Below are positions 4,855 to 48,327 of a DNA stretch of 64,000 nt, piece after piece. The notes under the pieces were generated by a model. The model saw only the letters and a list, made by a program, of their open reading frames with translations. It was not told the origin of the DNA and made no database searches. The stretch lies in the NCBI GenBank assembly GCA_020251025.1, contig JADCDI010000001.1, forward strand, positions 121,038 to 185,037, read 5' to 3'. The position numbers were made by a program, and so were the translations under genes. Each line of letters starts with the position of its first letter. Within the stretch, counting starts at the first letter, position 1. This stretch comes from Rhodobacter sp. (lineage in GTDB: Bacteria > Pseudomonadota > Alphaproteobacteria > Rhodobacterales > Rhodobacteraceae).

Positions 4855-7500
4855 TCAGTGCCGGATCATGCTGCGCAGTTCGTAGATCAGGCGCAGGGCG
4901 TCCATCGGGGTCAGATCGTCCGGGTGAATTCCGCTCAGGCGCGCCTCGACCTCAGACGGTTCAGGCCTGGCGGGAGCTGCCCGTGCAGGCGCAGCCCGGA
5001 ACAGCGGCAAGTCATCGACCAGCGCCGCAGGGCGTGACCCGCCGGCGCGGTCACCTGATTCGAGCGTTTCCAGGATCGTGCGGGCGCGTTCGATGACGGC
5101 GGCGGGAAGTCCCGCAAGCTTGGCAACCTGCACGCCATAGGACCGATCCGCAGCCCCTTCCCGCACCTCGTGCAGGAAGATGATCTGGCCATCCCACTCC
5201 TTGACGGTGACGGTCGCGTTTTCCAAGCCGGGCAATTTGCCTGCCAGGGCCGTCATCTCGTGATAATGCGTGGCGAACAGCGCACGGCAGCGGTTGACGT
5301 CGTGCAGATGCTCCAGCGTGGCCCAGGCGATGGACAGACCGTCATAAGTGGCGGTCCCCCGCCCGATCTCGTCCAGAATGACCAGCGCCCGGTCATCGGC
5401 CTGGTTCAGGATCGCTGCCGTTTCCACCATCTCGACCATGAAGGTGGACCGCCCTCGTGCCAGGTCGTCCGATGCGCCGACCCGGCAGAACAGCTGGCTC
5501 ACCAGCCCGATATGGGCCCGCGTCGCCGGAACAAAGCTTCCGGCCTGTGCCAGAAGGGCAATCAGGGCATTCTGGCGCAGGAAGGTGGACTTTCCCGCCA
5601 TGTTGGGGCCTGTCAGCAGCCAGAGTGCCGGCGTCTCTGCGGTTGTCAGCACACAGTTGTTGGCAACAAAGGTGCCGCCGCCCTGACGGCGCAGCGCGCG
5701 TTCCACCACCGGGTGGCGGCCCCCGGTGACCCAGAAGGCGCGACTGTCCGTCACCACAGGCTCGACCCAGCTCTCTGCCGCAGCAAGGTCGGCCAGGGCC
5801 GCAGTCAGATCAATCTCGGCCAGGGCGCGCGCCGTCGCGGCGATCTGCCCCGCTGAAGCAAGAATTGCTGATTTCAGGCCATCATAGAGCCGCTTTTCAA
5901 TTTCAAGCGCATGATTTCCGGCGTTCAGGATGCGTGTCTCAAGGTCTGACAGCTGCACGGTGGTGAACCGCAGCAGATTGGCTGTCGTCTGACGGTGGAT
6001 GAAGGTCTCCGACAGCGGGGGCTTCAGCATCCGCTCTGCATGCAGGTCCGTTGTTTCTATGAAATAGCCCAGAACGTTGTTGTGCTTGATCTTCAGGCTC
6101 TGGATGCCGCTCAGCGCGGCATAGTCCGCCTGAAGCGCGGCAATCACGGCGCGCCCCTCGTCGCGAAGGCGGCGTGCCTCATCAAGGGCGGGGTCGTGGC
6201 CTGCCGCAATAAAGCCGCCGTCCCGTGCCAAAAGCGGCAGATCCGGGACCAGGGCGGCCCCCAGCATGGCGATCAGCGCAGAATGCCCGGTCAGCTCTGC
6301 TGCCGCCCGCGCCAGCAGCGGCGGTGCATCTTCAAGGCGCGCGGCCACTGCCTCTGCCACCGCAAGACCGGTGCGGATCGCGCCCAGATCGCGCGGTCCC
6401 CCCCGATCCAGGGCCAGCCGCGACAGTGCGCGGTCGATGTCCGGAACCTGACGCAGGTCGGACCGCAAGCCATCGCGCCGAAGGCCCTGTTCTGCCAGAA
6501 ACCGCACTGCGTCAAGCCGTGCCTGGATCACGCCAAGGTCACGCGATGGTCCGGAAAGCCGCCGCTCCAGCAGGCGCGCGCCGGCGGCCGTGACTGTCCG
6601 GTCCACGGCGGAAAGCAACGACCCCTCGCGCCCGCCAGCCAGGCCGGCGGTGATTTCCAGATTGCGCCGTGTGGCGGCATCGATCTGCATCGTGTCGCCC
6701 TGTGTCTCGGCCACAGGGGGGCGCAGCAAGGGAAGTTTGCCGCGCTGCGTCAGATCAAGATAGTCAACGATAGCGCCCATGGCAGACAGATCCGCCCTGT
6801 CGAAGGTGCCAAAGGCGTCCAGCGTGGTGACCCCGAACAGGATGCACAGCCGCCGCTCTGCCGCCGCGCTGTCAAAGCTGGACCGCGCCAAAGTCGTGGC
6901 TGCGGCACCCGAATCCGCAACCAGTTCAGACCATGCGCCTTCGCGCGCCTCGCTCAGCAGAACCTCGCGCGGGGCAAGCCGGGCAAGTTCGGGCCCAAGG
7001 CGCAGCGGCGGGCAGGACATCACACGGAATTCCCCTGTCGAGATGTCAACCCAAGCCAGGGACGCCCCCTCGCGCACCTCGGCCCAGGCGGCCAGAAAAT
7101 TGTGCCGCCGGGCATCCAGAAGGCCGTCTTCCGTCAGGGTTCCGGGGGTAACGAGGCGGACCACATCGCGGCGCACCACGGATTTGGATCCGCGTTTGCG
7201 CGCCTCGGCCGGGTCTTCCATCTGTTCGGCAATCGCCACCCGAAAGCCCTTGCGGATCAGCGTCAGCAGATAGCCCTCGGCAGAGTGCACCGGAACGCCG
7301 CACATCGCGATGTCTTCGCCCAGATGCTTGCCCCGCCGCGTCAGCGCAATATCCAGGGCCTCGCTTGCCGCAACGGCATCATCAAAGAACATCTCGTAGA
7401 AATCGCCCATCCGGTAGAACAAAAGCGCGCCCGGGTTGGCGGCCTTGATCTCCAGATATTGCGCCATCATCGGCGTGACGCTGTCTTCGGCCAATTGCAA
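4855..7500 (-). CDS. mutS: DNA mismatch repair protein MutS
   Basis: 881 residues, full length. The mismatch-reading motif [11 protein letters not shown] (F-x-E) is near residue 35. The connector, lever and clamp domains follow, then the ATPase with Walker [10 protein letters not shown] and Walker B region [17 protein letters not shown]. The C-terminal tail ends in the usual helical [15 protein letters not shown] motif that forms tetramers. MutS recognises mispairs and small loops and recruits MutL. An alternative start at the next Met pair (about residue 11, MMAQYLEIK) is possible. It is convergent with grpE, with 96 bp between. Confidence 0.97.
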
Positions 7501-45010: not shown

Positions 45011-46042
45011 ATGGGTTACGTCCCCGCCGAAGACCGCTGCGACCGCATGATTTACCGCCGTTGCGGCGCGTCCGGCCTGAAGCTGCCGGTCGTCTCTCTG
45101 GGCCTGTGGCACAACTTCGGCCACGACACCCCGCATGAGACAAAGCAGGCTATCTGCCGCACCGCCTTTGATCAGGGCATCACCCATTTCGATCTGGCCA
45201 ACAATTACGGCCCGCCCCCCGGCAGCGCCGAAGAAGCTTTCGGCGGGATTCTGAAGACCGATTTTCACGGGCTGCGGGACGAGCTGATCATCTCGTCCAA
45301 GGCAGGCTATCTGATGTGGGGCGGCCCCTATGGCGAATGGGGCAGCCGCAAACACCTGATCGCCTCCTGCGACCAGTCACTGAAGCGCCTGGGGCTTGAT
45401 TATGTCGATATCTTCTATTCGCACCGCTTCGATCCCGACACGCCGCTGGAAGAGACGATGCAGGCGCTGGATTACATCGTGCGGTCGGGCCGGGCGCTTT
45501 ATGTCGGCCTGTCATCCTACAATTCCGAAAAGACCCGGCAGGCTGTTGCCATTCTGAAAGACCTGGGCACGCCCTGCCTGATTCACCAGCCCAGCTACAA
45601 TATCCTGAACCGCTGGATCGAAACGGACGGGCTGAAGGAAACCCTGGCTGATCTTGGCATCGGGTCCATTGCCTTCACGCCGCTGGCGCAGGGTATTCTG
45701 ACCCGCAAATACCTGAACGGCATCCCGCAGGGCAGCCGCGCCAGCCAGGGAAAGTCGCTTGATCCTGCTGTTATCACCGAAGGCGCGCTGAATTCCGTTC
45801 GCGCACTGGATGCGATGGCACAGGCACGGGGTCAGACCCTGGCGCAAATGGCCATTGCCTGGGTCTTGCGCCACGGCGGCATCACCACCGCCCTGATCGG
45901 CGCATCCAGGCCCGAACAGGTTGTCGATTGCTGCGGCGCGATCAGCAACCTGGACTTCTCGGATGCCGAACTGGCGCAGATCAACCAGATCGCCGAGCAG
46001 AAGGATGTCAACCTTTGGGCCAGATCGGCACAGCTTGACTGA
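45011..46042 (+). CDS. mgrA: Aldo/keto reductase, MgrA/YghZ-like L-glyceraldehyde-3-phosphate reductase
   Basis: 343 residues from the ATG at 45011 (GAAAGGA upstream). Catalytic tetrad positions are visible: D and Y in FDLANNYG, K in SSKAGYLMW, and H in YSHRFDPD. The N-terminus MIYRRCGASGLKLPVVSLGLWHNFG is characteristic of the YghZ/AKR14 group, which reduces L-glyceraldehyde 3-phosphate or methylglyoxal. Its role in a xylose operon is unclear; detoxifying sugar-derived aldehydes is one idea. The 3' 340 bases are duplicated at 47986-48327. Confidence 0.85.
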   Translation: MGYVPAEDRCDRMIYRRCGASGLKLPVVSLGLWHNFGHDTPHETKQAICRTAFDQGITHFDLANNYGPPPGSAEEAFGGILKTDFHGLRDELIISSKAGYLMWGGPYGEWGSRKHLIASCDQSLKRLGLDYVDIFYSHRFDPDTPLEETMQALDYIVRSGRALYVGLSSYNSEKTRQAVAILKDLGTPCLIHQPSYNILNRWIETDGLKETLADLGIGSIAFTPLAQGILTRKYLNGIPQGSRASQGKSLDPAVITEGALNSVRALDAMAQARGQTLAQMAIAWVLRHGGITTALIGASRPEQVVDCCGAISNLDFSDAELAQINQIAEQKDVNLWARSAQLD

Positions 46043-46054
46043 CACGGCATGGAA

Positions 46055-46098: not shown

Positions 46099-46383
46099 TC
46101 AGGCGGCCTTTTGCGCGCTGACTTCCATCAGCAGGCGTTCTGTCCGCGCCTCGTCAAGCTTGTTGTAAAGCCGCTGCGATTCCTCATTGTCGCGCAGCGT
46201 CTTGGTGATTGCGGCGGTAGAGCTGACAAGCATCAGCGCGGCCATGGCGTAAAAGCCCTTGGCGGCAAAGCTGGCTTCCAGAAAATAGATGCCGCCCGCC
46301 ATCATCGAGGCACCGACAGCGAAGTTGATATAGGTGAACACGTTCCAGGCAGCCGATACTTTGCTTGGGGCATAGTCTTGCAT
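46099..46383 (-). CDS. YiaA/YiaB two-helix inner-membrane protein
   Basis: 94 residues from the ATG at 46383, with GGAG 8 bases upstream; the track's ATG at 46404 has no such site. Residues about 12-34 (AAWNVFTYINFAVGASMMAGGIY) and 41-61 (KGFYAMAALMLVSSTAAIT) are membrane helices, the YiaAB double-helix unit, followed by a charged cytoplasmic tail (LRDNEESQRLYNKLDEARTERL). It lies 87 bases downstream of pspA on the same strand, and both are presumably controlled by the TetR gene. Confidence 0.85.
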   Translation of the reverse strand: MQDYAPSKVSAAWNVFTYINFAVGASMMAGGIYFLEASFAAKGFYAMAALMLVSSTAAITKTLRDNEESQRLYNKLDEARTERLLMEVSAQKAA

Positions 46384-46470
46384 GATACTCTCCGTTTGAT
46401 GCATGGGCCTGTGGCCCGTTCATGGTGAAAGTGCTGTGGTTTGGTTCCGTTGACCGTGAGGTACCGGGTT

Positions 46471-47169
46471 TCAGGGTGCCAGCGGCAGGTTGGCCGCCGA
46501 TGCTTGCTTCAGCCGGGCCAGAACCGCCGCTGCGTCCGGGCGCAGGGGCGCGCCGCACCCTGCGGCTGCCAGCCTGTCTCGGGTTGCATCGGCGCTGGTT
46601 CGTGCCGAAAGCTCGACGGCCGCATCCCGCGTGGCTGCCGCCATCGCCTGGCGTTCCTGAATCCGGTTCAGGGTGGCCTCGGCATCTGACAGGCCCGCCG
46701 TCATGGTGACCGGGCCTTTTTCGTGCAGGCGCTGCGTGTGTTCCGTGGCAAGCGCCAGACGCTGGCCCCGCTGCAAGGCACGCAGGCGGCTTTCGCTTTC
46801 GGACAGAACCTTGCGCAGGCGTGCAATCTCGGTCTGGTAGGTGGCAATGGCACGGGCGGTCGTGTCACGTTCCGCCTCAAGATGGGCCATGGCCCCGGCT
46901 GCCTCGGCCGCCAGGTCTTCCCGCCCCTTCAGCAGCGCCTCTTTGGCGCGCACCTCCAGATCACCAAGCTGCAGGGCAATCTCTTCGGCTGATTTCCTTT
47001 CGCGCTCGCAGCAGGCCATCACCATCGCCACCGATTTGCGCCCCAGTTCAACCGACTGCGCACAGTCGCGCAATTGCTGGCGCAGGATCGGCACGGCATT
47101 CGCATCCACAATTGCGTCGGCGGCGTCATGGCTCCGCCCGCGAAACATCGTGACAAGAAGCTTAAGCAT
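46471..47169 (-). CDS. pspA: PspA/IM30-family membrane-stress protein
   Basis: 232 residues from the ATG at 47169, preceded by GGAGG; the track's ATG is four codons earlier. Almost the whole chain is predicted alpha-helix/coiled coil (KSAEEIALQLGDLEVRAKEALLKGREDLAAEAAGAMAHLEAERDTT), as in the ESCRT-III-like PspA/Vipp1 family. The N-terminal helix MLKLLVTMFRGR is short and basic and may insert in the membrane. Divergence from the family's usual start is high, and no pspF or pspBC gene is nearby. It is regulated instead, it seems, by a TetR repressor. Confidence 0.85.
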   Translation of the reverse strand: MLKLLVTMFRGRSHDAADAIVDANAVPILRQQLRDCAQSVELGRKSVAMVMACCERERKSAEEIALQLGDLEVRAKEALLKGREDLAAEAAGAMAHLEAERDTTARAIATYQTEIARLRKVLSESESRLRALQRGQRLALATEHTQRLHEKGPVTMTAGLSDAEATLNRIQERQAMAAATRDAAVELSARTSADATRDRLAAAGCGAPLRPDAAAVLARLKQASAANLPLAP

Positions 47170-47186
47170 TGATACCTCCATTCACA

Positions 47187-47257
47187 TGAACATTGTTCAC
47201 AAGGGCAACATGCCTGATTCGTGAACGTTGTTCAAGAAGATTTTTGAACATTGTTCA
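47187..47257. promoter_or_regulatory. Three TetR operator-like palindromes in the pspA-tetR intergenic region
   Basis: TGAACATTGTTCA (perfect inverted repeat around a central T) occurs at 47187-47199 and 47245-47257, with one-base variant TGAACGTTGTTCA at 47222-47234. The centres are 35 and 23 bp apart. The first lies 18 bp before the pspA start and the third 19 bp before the tetR start, so the repressor would control both directions. Confidence 0.82.
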
Positions 47258-47275
47258 AAAGATCGGGGAGACGCG

Positions 47276-47881
47276 ATGGAAACCCAGGAAAAACCCGGCC
47301 GTGACAACCTGCGTCACCGCCTTGTGGACGCCGCCGAACGAAGAATTGGCGAACAGGGCTTGTCAGGGCTGAAGGCAAGGCAGGTCACAGCCGATGTCGG
47401 CTGCGCGCTGGGCGCGCTTTACAACGCTTTCGAGGATCTTGATGACCTGATCCTTCATGTCAACGCACGCACGCTTGACCGGCTGGCCGCAGCCTTTGCC
47501 GGCGCACACCGGGCCGGTGAATCCGCCGAAGAAACCATCGCAGTTCTGGCCCAGACCTATGTGCGTTTCGCGCTGGAAAACCGCATGCTGTGGTCTGCCG
47601 TCTTTGCGCTTGCTTTGCCCGAAGGGCGGTCAGCACCTGATTGGTACGTGGTCAGATACAGGGCCCTGATTGACCAGATTGCCGACCCGCTTGCCAAACT
47701 GCGCCCCGACCTTTCGCCCGAAGAGCTGCAACTTCGTGCGCGCACCCTGTTCGCGGCGGTTCATGGTGTGGTCCGGCTGTTTCTGGAGGCACGCTTTCTG
47801 GCCGTACCACAAGACAGGATCACGCCAGAGGTAGCCGCCCTTGTCAAAGCCATGACACGGGGGTTGTCGGCAGCAGAATGA
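47276..47881 (+). CDS. TetR-family transcriptional regulator
   Basis: 201 residues from the ATG at 47276 (GGGGAG upstream). The N-terminal helix-turn-helix is LVDAAERRIGEQGLSGLKARQVTADVGCALGALYNAFEDLDDLILHV. The C-terminal half (ETIAVLAQTYVRFALENRMLWSAVFAL...LRARTLFAAVHGVVRLFLEARFL) is a WHG-type ligand domain. It is divergent from pspA-yiaAB, with operator-like palindromes in between, so autoregulated repression is the best reading. The inducing ligand is unknown. Confidence 0.92.
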   Translation: METQEKPGRDNLRHRLVDAAERRIGEQGLSGLKARQVTADVGCALGALYNAFEDLDDLILHVNARTLDRLAAAFAGAHRAGESAEETIAVLAQTYVRFALENRMLWSAVFALALPEGRSAPDWYVVRYRALIDQIADPLAKLRPDLSPEELQLRARTLFAAVHGVVRLFLEARFLAVPQDRITPEVAALVKAMTRGLSAAE

Positions 47882-47985: not shown

Positions 47986-48327
47986 CCGCAAATACCTGAA
48001 CGGCATCCCGCAGGGCAGCCGCGCCAGCCAGGGAAAGTCGCTTGATCCTGCCGTTATCACCGAAGGCGCGCTGAATTCCGTTCGCGCACTGGATGCGATG
48101 GCACAGGCACGGGGTCAGACCCTGGCGCAAATGGCCATTGCCTGGGTCTTGCGCCACGGCGGCATCACCACCGCCCTGATCGGCGCGTCCAGGCCCGAAC
48201 AGGTTGTCGATTGCTGCGGCGCGATCAGCAACCTGGACTTCTCGGATACCGAACTGGCGCAGATCAACCAGATCGCCGGGCAGAAGGATGTCAACCTTTG
48301 GGCCAGATCGGCACAGCTTGACTGACA
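47986..48327 (+). pseudogene. Duplicated 3' fragment of mgrA
   Basis: The 342 bases from CCGCAAATACCTGAACGG through the stop match 45703-46044 with a constant offset of 2283 and only four substitutions (about 98.8% identity), with no gaps. They correspond to the C-terminal third (about 113 residues) of the aldo/keto reductase. Two changes alter residues (A to T, E to G) and two are silent. No N-terminal half, start signal or catalytic tetrad remains; the track's 75-residue ORF at 48098 is only its tail. Recent duplication. Confidence 0.93.

Follow-up and report, generated by a model that had tools for sequence, protein, structure and literature searches.

The locus described here lies within a 64,000-nucleotide stretch of a Rhodobacter sp. 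contig (JADCDI010000001.1), hereafter called the window. Two genes, yiaAB and pspA, run leftward and diverge from a tetR gene, and three short palindromes lie between pspA and tetR (Table 1). The identities and end points given for these genes in a preliminary description made from the sequence alone were right: yiaAB and pspA passed their Pfam cut-offs, and TetR was recognised through its C-terminal domain, the TetR_N match falling slightly under the curated cut-off. Judged from the sequence, ATG at 47276 is a better start for tetR than TTG at 47228, and the true start of pspA is probably the ATG at 47169, which is preceded by GGAGG. PspA proteins are widespread membrane-repair factors. A search of the window genome (3.32 Mb in 131 contigs) returned the window gene as its single PspA, and the profile of this protein matched solved Vipp1/PspA chains.

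Table 1. Genes, putative operators and predicted promoter elements of the pspA-yiaAB-tetR locus (window coordinates).
Feature	Position	Strand	Basis and remarks
yiaAB	46099..46404	-	PF05360, 51.4 bits (cut-off 26.6); small protein of the inner membrane
pspA	46471..47181	-	PF04012, 85.1 bits (cut-off 33.9); PspA/IM30 (ESCRT-III-type) protein
tetR	47276..47881	+	TetR_C_33 (PF13305), 43.3 bits (cut-off 26.8); WHG-type ligand domain
Operator O3, TGAACATTGTTCA	47187..47199		Putative; pspA-proximal; expected over the pspA transcription start
Operator O2, TGAACGTTGTTCA	47222..47234		Putative; holds most of the predicted pspA -35 (TTGAAC, - strand)
Operator O1, TGAACATTGTTCA	47245..47257		Putative; tetR-proximal, 18 bp ahead of the tetR ATG
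pspA -35, TTGAAC	47230..47235	-	Predicted; CTTGAAC conserved at O2 among at least 120 loci
pspA -10, CATGTT	47207..47212	-	Predicted; family consensus TATRTT, 17 bp from the -35; TA-rich block conserved in the O2-O3 gap among at least 120 loci

The preliminary description had noted operator-like palindromes between pspA and tetR, and three copies of TGAACRTTGTTCA were indeed located in the 94-bp gap between the listed start codons of the two genes. The pattern TGAACNNNGTTCA has exactly three matches in the 3.32-Mb window genome, all of them in this gap, and a control pattern has none in the same genome. The operator is a 13-bp palindrome whose copies keep a fixed spacing, with 22-23 bp from O1 to O2 and 33-35 bp from O2 to O3. 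tetR and pspA are divergent in the window and co-directional in many Rhodobacteraceae, and an extra operator copy is present ahead of tetR in many of the co-directional loci. Among the at least 120 sites listed, CT usually precedes O2, so that O2 carries CTTGAAC, a good -35 element, and a TATRTT-like -10 sits 16-17 bp beyond it in the O2-O3 gap. At the predicted promoter, such a layout is the one that a repressor acting by occlusion of RNA polymerase would require, and it would account for the conserved spacing.

The association of the three genes was followed in samples of increasing breadth. Within 199 genomes of the same family, searched with the window protein as query, a related PspA was found in 36. 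A profile search placed the TetR family in all 36 PspA-bearing genomes, whereas only 17 of the 163 others had it (Fisher p=6e-27, for sampled genomes that are related to each other). TetR was no more than 1.7 kb from pspA in 35 of the 36, the exception (G133) having it on another contig, and yiaAB adjoined pspA at 29 of the 30 pspA loci whose surroundings were read. An evenly drawn, class-wide sample of 289 alphaproteobacterial genomes yielded YiaAB in nine, directly beside PspA in eight of them; the ninth (G219) has no PspA and carries TetR, two operators and a YiaAB-Aas pair. The YiaAB family is under-counted, since PF05360 misses many operator-linked YiaABs, and a Leisingera copy scores 25.7 bits against the cut-off of 26.6. 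When only distinct places were counted (four repeat fetches left out), operators were present at 35 of 36 YiaAB-linked pspA loci, in three or more copies at 33, and at none of 37 pspA loci without YiaAB. In addition, the distances of TetR, PspA and YiaAB correlate with one another (Mantel r 0.67-0.90), the highest value being that of PspA and YiaAB (r 0.90). At one locus (L128, genome G090), PspA-YiaAB with operators has no close TetR adjoining, and a distant TetR relative lies 1.7 kb downstream.

The triple operator was further used as a search pattern. It occurred in 13 of 399 genomes of a phylum-wide sample, in which a reversed control pattern had zero matches, and at no fewer than 120 sites among 84,980 bacterial and archaeal genomes; all titled records among the matches listed were alphaproteobacterial. 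Seven of the 120 sites listed end before a visible downstream gene, and at 107 of the 113 assessable ones a gene for PspA, YiaAB, Aas or an alpha/beta hydrolase lies downstream on the same strand. Among the matches listed, these 107 sites comprise 75 with PspA-YiaAB and 3 with YiaAB-PspA, each with or without Aas, 14 with Aas alone, 2 with YiaAB-Aas, 3 with a hydrolase and 10 in which only PspA or only YiaAB was recognised, several of the last group being cut by contig ends. TetR adjoins 97 and Aas is present at 26 of the 120 loci listed; the Mesorhizobium Aas gene is an operator target that lies at a distance and has no tetR beside it.

The operator-linked Aas is a full fusion of LplT, acyltransferase and acyl-ACP ligase (1717 bits against the NCBIfam equivalog NF005291 cut-off of 1349). 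The operator-linked hydrolases belong to PF12146, and their best NCBIfam relative is lysophospholipase L2, far under its cut-off. The presence of LplT-Aas and lysophospholipase-like genes under the same operators makes phospholipid or lysophospholipid repair the likely purpose of the module. No Aas was found in the window genome, which gave only acyl-CoA ligase-like partial matches, and the lipid-repair role is thus carried over to it from relatives. These LplT-Aas and hydrolase targets are additions to the preliminary description, as are the fixed three-operator promoter layout and the duplicated gene tail around the cassette that is described at the end.

Some individual loci extend the picture of the sites. 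L151 and L157 have the triple operator ahead of lysophospholipase-L2-like alpha/beta hydrolases, one of which is fused to a PF12147 methyltransferase, and at L194, L195 and L150 it precedes genes outside the assigned regulon classes. Two Asticcacaulis-type loci (L117 and L176) combine the same TetR and triple operator with a small downstream protein that matches no Pfam family, has two stretches of hydrophobic residues and might take the place of YiaAB; a third (L227) has the same TetR and triple operator with a different small hydrophobic ORF. At L074 (G398), a second operator cluster (5803-5871) lies downstream of yiaAB and ahead of a gene of about 411 aa, which may be a further regulon member.

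The AlphaFold2 model of the window YiaAB (mean pLDDT 77) has helices at residues 18-41 and 46-100. With moderate confidence these describe a transmembrane hairpin (about 18-66) in which the second helix extends past the hairpin, forming a charged C-terminal helix up to residue 100. The tail carries the conserved motif IEDAKxEKLL, which reads IEDA(K/R)xE(K/R)LL or a close variant across the operator-linked YiaABs. In an alignment of 32 of these proteins, from which the tail lengths were counted, 31 have a charged tail of 27-31 residues beyond the invariant D72, and the remaining one is short and looks frameshifted. The E. coli-type YiaA model stops where the match of the window YiaAB stops, at residue 74, and has no tail. 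In G219, the one PspA-free genome checked, YiaAB stops about ten residues past this point, without the charged tail. The tail is thus present on PspA-linked YiaABs and missing in PspA-free G219, so that it may be a dock for PspA. PspA docking cannot be the sole role of YiaAB, however, since three operons (L077, L155 and L147) have YiaAB with Aas and no PspA, and the L155 protein keeps its tail though no pspA is in its operon. The G219 locus (L077, G219:C1, 579-4951; TetR, two operators, tail-less YiaAB and LplT-Aas) is a natural version of the regulon minus PspA. An apparent natural fusion of PspA and YiaAB in G629 (L091/L213) was rejected: in one open frame a shortened PspA, which lacks its end, runs into YiaAB, and the junction resembles a frameshift or read-through.

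The AlphaFold model of the window TetR (mean pLDDT 95) has the TetR fold. Its single close solved relative is 3CJD (profile E=4.2e-75; fold TM 0.84/0.93), a Jannaschia sp. CCS1 TetR that was solved by structural genomics and belongs in the window TetR family; a literature search whose coverage excluded most subscription journals found no relevant paper on this structure. Further relatives, which include KstR and the C20-CoA-binding FasR, bind hydrophobic ligands of various kinds, and homology therefore leaves the ligand class a guess. It is from the content of the regulon that we infer a hydrophobic ligand. Repressors of the fatty-acid type in the TetR family act through short palindromes that overlie both their own promoter and those of their targets. 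The window TetR has the fold of PsrA, Bacillus FadR and FasR in common, yet it scores 19-30 bits against equivalog cut-offs of 150-300 and represents a distinct family.

Expression of a related locus has been recorded in Rhizobium tropici CIAT 899, whose replicon pRtrCIAT899c carries TetR, three operators and PspA-YiaAB-Aas. In RNA-seq data with a loose significance threshold, and under acid stress that shifts many genes, the PspA gene RS28825 had a log2FC of 4.87 during growth at pH 4.5 and of 4.42 once acid shock had lasted 45 min, its neighbour RS28820, listed as a 'hypothetical protein', showed 4.46 at pH 4.5, and the TetR gene RS28830 was named among the regulators implicated under acid stress, with a tentative tie to efflux by the authors (PMC5936775). 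The tags were tied to the locus through their replicon and their order, and the consecutive numbers RS28820, RS28825 and RS28830 fit yiaAB, pspA and tetR. A repressor that controls its own gene and lets go under membrane stress would be expected to give such a response.

On this evidence we consider, with a probability of about 0.6, that pspA, yiaAB and tetR form a small membrane-repair circuit that is switched by derepression at the predicted TetR operators. In the proposed mechanism, TetR would occupy all three sites, shutting the pspA promoter (O2 at the -35, O3 at the start site) as well as its own gene. Phospholipid damage, by acid, phospholipase or detergent for example, would yield an amphipathic product, such as a lysophospholipid, a free fatty acid or an acyl thioester, which would enter the WHG ligand pocket and free the promoter. 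PspA would coat and stabilise the damaged inner membrane, the hairpin and charged cytoplasmic tail of YiaAB would serve as its integral-membrane anchor, and in relatives Aas would re-acylate the lysophospholipid as part of this response. Aas was lost from the window genome or was never there, so that only the PspA-YiaAB branch would act there. A broader proposal is an alphaproteobacterial lipid-damage response in which a single TetR family acts as the sensor of lysophospholipid or of a related product, and the triple operator co-induces a PspA coat, a YiaAB anchor with a PspA-docking tail and lysophospholipid-repair enzymes; we hold it tentatively, at somewhat short of even odds. Of the preliminary interpretation, the TetR-linked PspA/YiaAB unit stands, as non-random and free of the classical regulators, while the proposed YiaAB dock goes as far as plausible and the hydrophobic ligand as far as the regulon content suggests.

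Other explanations were weighed against the same observations. A random association of pspA, yiaAB and tetR, which had been set beforehand as the refutation of the preliminary description, was decisively not borne out: a chance neighbourhood of three unrelated genes is favoured by the lack of earlier description and by nothing else, the neighbourhood and operator counts refute it, and we therefore reject it as having a vanishingly small probability. The place of YiaAB is more debatable, because G219 keeps the protein together with TetR and Aas in a genome without PspA. YiaAB might accordingly be an independent lysolipid or membrane-stress factor that shares the promoter and is no partner of PspA, a possibility that we rate well below even; against it, the G219 protein lacks the charged tail seen in 31 of 32 operator-linked YiaABs, and the distance correlation is strongest between PspA and YiaAB.

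Two further readings concern the signal. The TetR might mainly be a sensor of fatty acids or acyl-CoA, like PsrA, Bacillus FadR and FasR, with a regulon that balances the acyl-chain supply of the membrane, Aas activating free fatty acids as an acyl-ACP synthetase and PspA-YiaAB forming a side branch against fatty-acid stress. A weak NCBIfam similarity to PsrA and FadR, a fold that resembles FasR and FadR, along with many other TetRs, and the acyl-ACP ligase domain of Aas agree with this, but no gene of beta-oxidation or fatty-acid synthesis lies directly behind the 107 assigned sites among the matches listed, and the acyl-CoA ligases of the window genome have no operator nearby; we regard it as unlikely. 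TetR regulators are often drug sensors, and the module might alternatively be a horizontally spread resistance cassette whose TetR senses a foreign membrane-active compound (a drug, a biocide or a plant or host antimicrobial). Its distribution is patchy, with the TetR in about a quarter of the sampled family genomes, its relatives in Rhizobium, Ensifer and Thioclava are on large replicons, and in the window genus the cassette has been inserted where relatives show empty sites. However, among the matches listed no efflux pump or drug-modifying enzyme was recognised behind the operators, the content being that of lipid repair, and the induction by acid (PMC5936775) argues for an internal damage signal, so we judge a foreign inducer to be quite improbable.

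Compared with the classical Psp system of Escherichia coli and Yersinia (PspF/sigma-54, PspA, PspB and PspC), which is on under envelope stress, the window module has in common a PspA/IM30 effector and a small integral-membrane partner. The control is different, being a predicted TetR derepression of a sigma-70-like promoter in the window and an activator held by PspA in the classical system. The claim that the unit is without the classical psp regulators held at the level of the genome: PspB (PF06667) and PspC (PF04024) have no match in the window genome, although the same models do match in E. coli, and the best protein for PspF reaches 215 bits against a cut-off of 443.55, as expected of the generic sigma-54 activators to which it corresponds. 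Membership of classical Psp was rejected, and since the PspB, PspC and PspF features were looked for and not found, the unit was filed as a variant of PspA stress systems, outside classical Psp. Likened by description, the Lia system of Bacillus subtilis (LiaIH, LiaFSR) also has a PspA homologue and a small membrane anchor (LiaI) in one operon; it is set apart, again by description, by two-component control and the absence of lipid-repair enzymes.

LplT/Aas protects E. coli from phospholipase attack (PMC11416262), and a Pseudomonas Aas protects against type VI (T6SS) lipases (PMC12663445); PspA is mentioned in neither paper. The operator-linked Aas genes are LplT-Aas fusions like these repair systems, and in the relatives of the window genome they have a TetR and an operator in common with PspA/YiaAB. 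Two large surveys of PSP neighbourhoods are catalogues of PspA partners and regulators (PMC11237479; PMC9239133); YiaA/YiaAB and TetR appear in neither main text, and an acyltransferase does not appear in that of PMC11237479. A search of the literature outside most subscription journals found nothing relevant that links PspA-YiaAB, PspA-TetR-lysophospholipid, YiaA/YiaB-TetR or WHG-PspA. A Zymomonas yiaAB paper was discarded as a precedent, its genes being parts of an engineered cassette, and the Paracoccus 'PspA' matches were vector names. PspA, YiaAB, TetR and Aas are known families; what appears to be new is their combination in one circuit. If true, the lipid-damage response proposed above would, as far as we know, connect PspA with phospholipid repair at the level of transcription for the first time. 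By tying PspA to lysophospholipid repair, the circuit bears on what PspA repairs and on how non-classical PspA is switched on, and it suggests possible roles for two orphans, the YiaAB family and the structure 3CJD. With one repressor, one operator word and three sites, it can be tested in many Alphaproteobacteria that grow in culture, legume symbionts and marine roseobacters among them.

Finally, the surroundings of the cassette record part of its history. A 342-bp direct repeat of 98.8% identity flanks it: the 3' end of the adjacent aldo-keto reductase gene, at 45703-46044, has a second copy across the cassette, at 47986-48327. In one congener (G844), the reductase gene is directly followed by the acyltransferase gene, which represents an empty site, and in another (G845) the site is filled and the repeats have 85.6% identity. 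Single-crossover insertion of a circle carrying a reductase tail would give a repeat-flanked cassette, and the arrangement in the window looks like the product of such an event.
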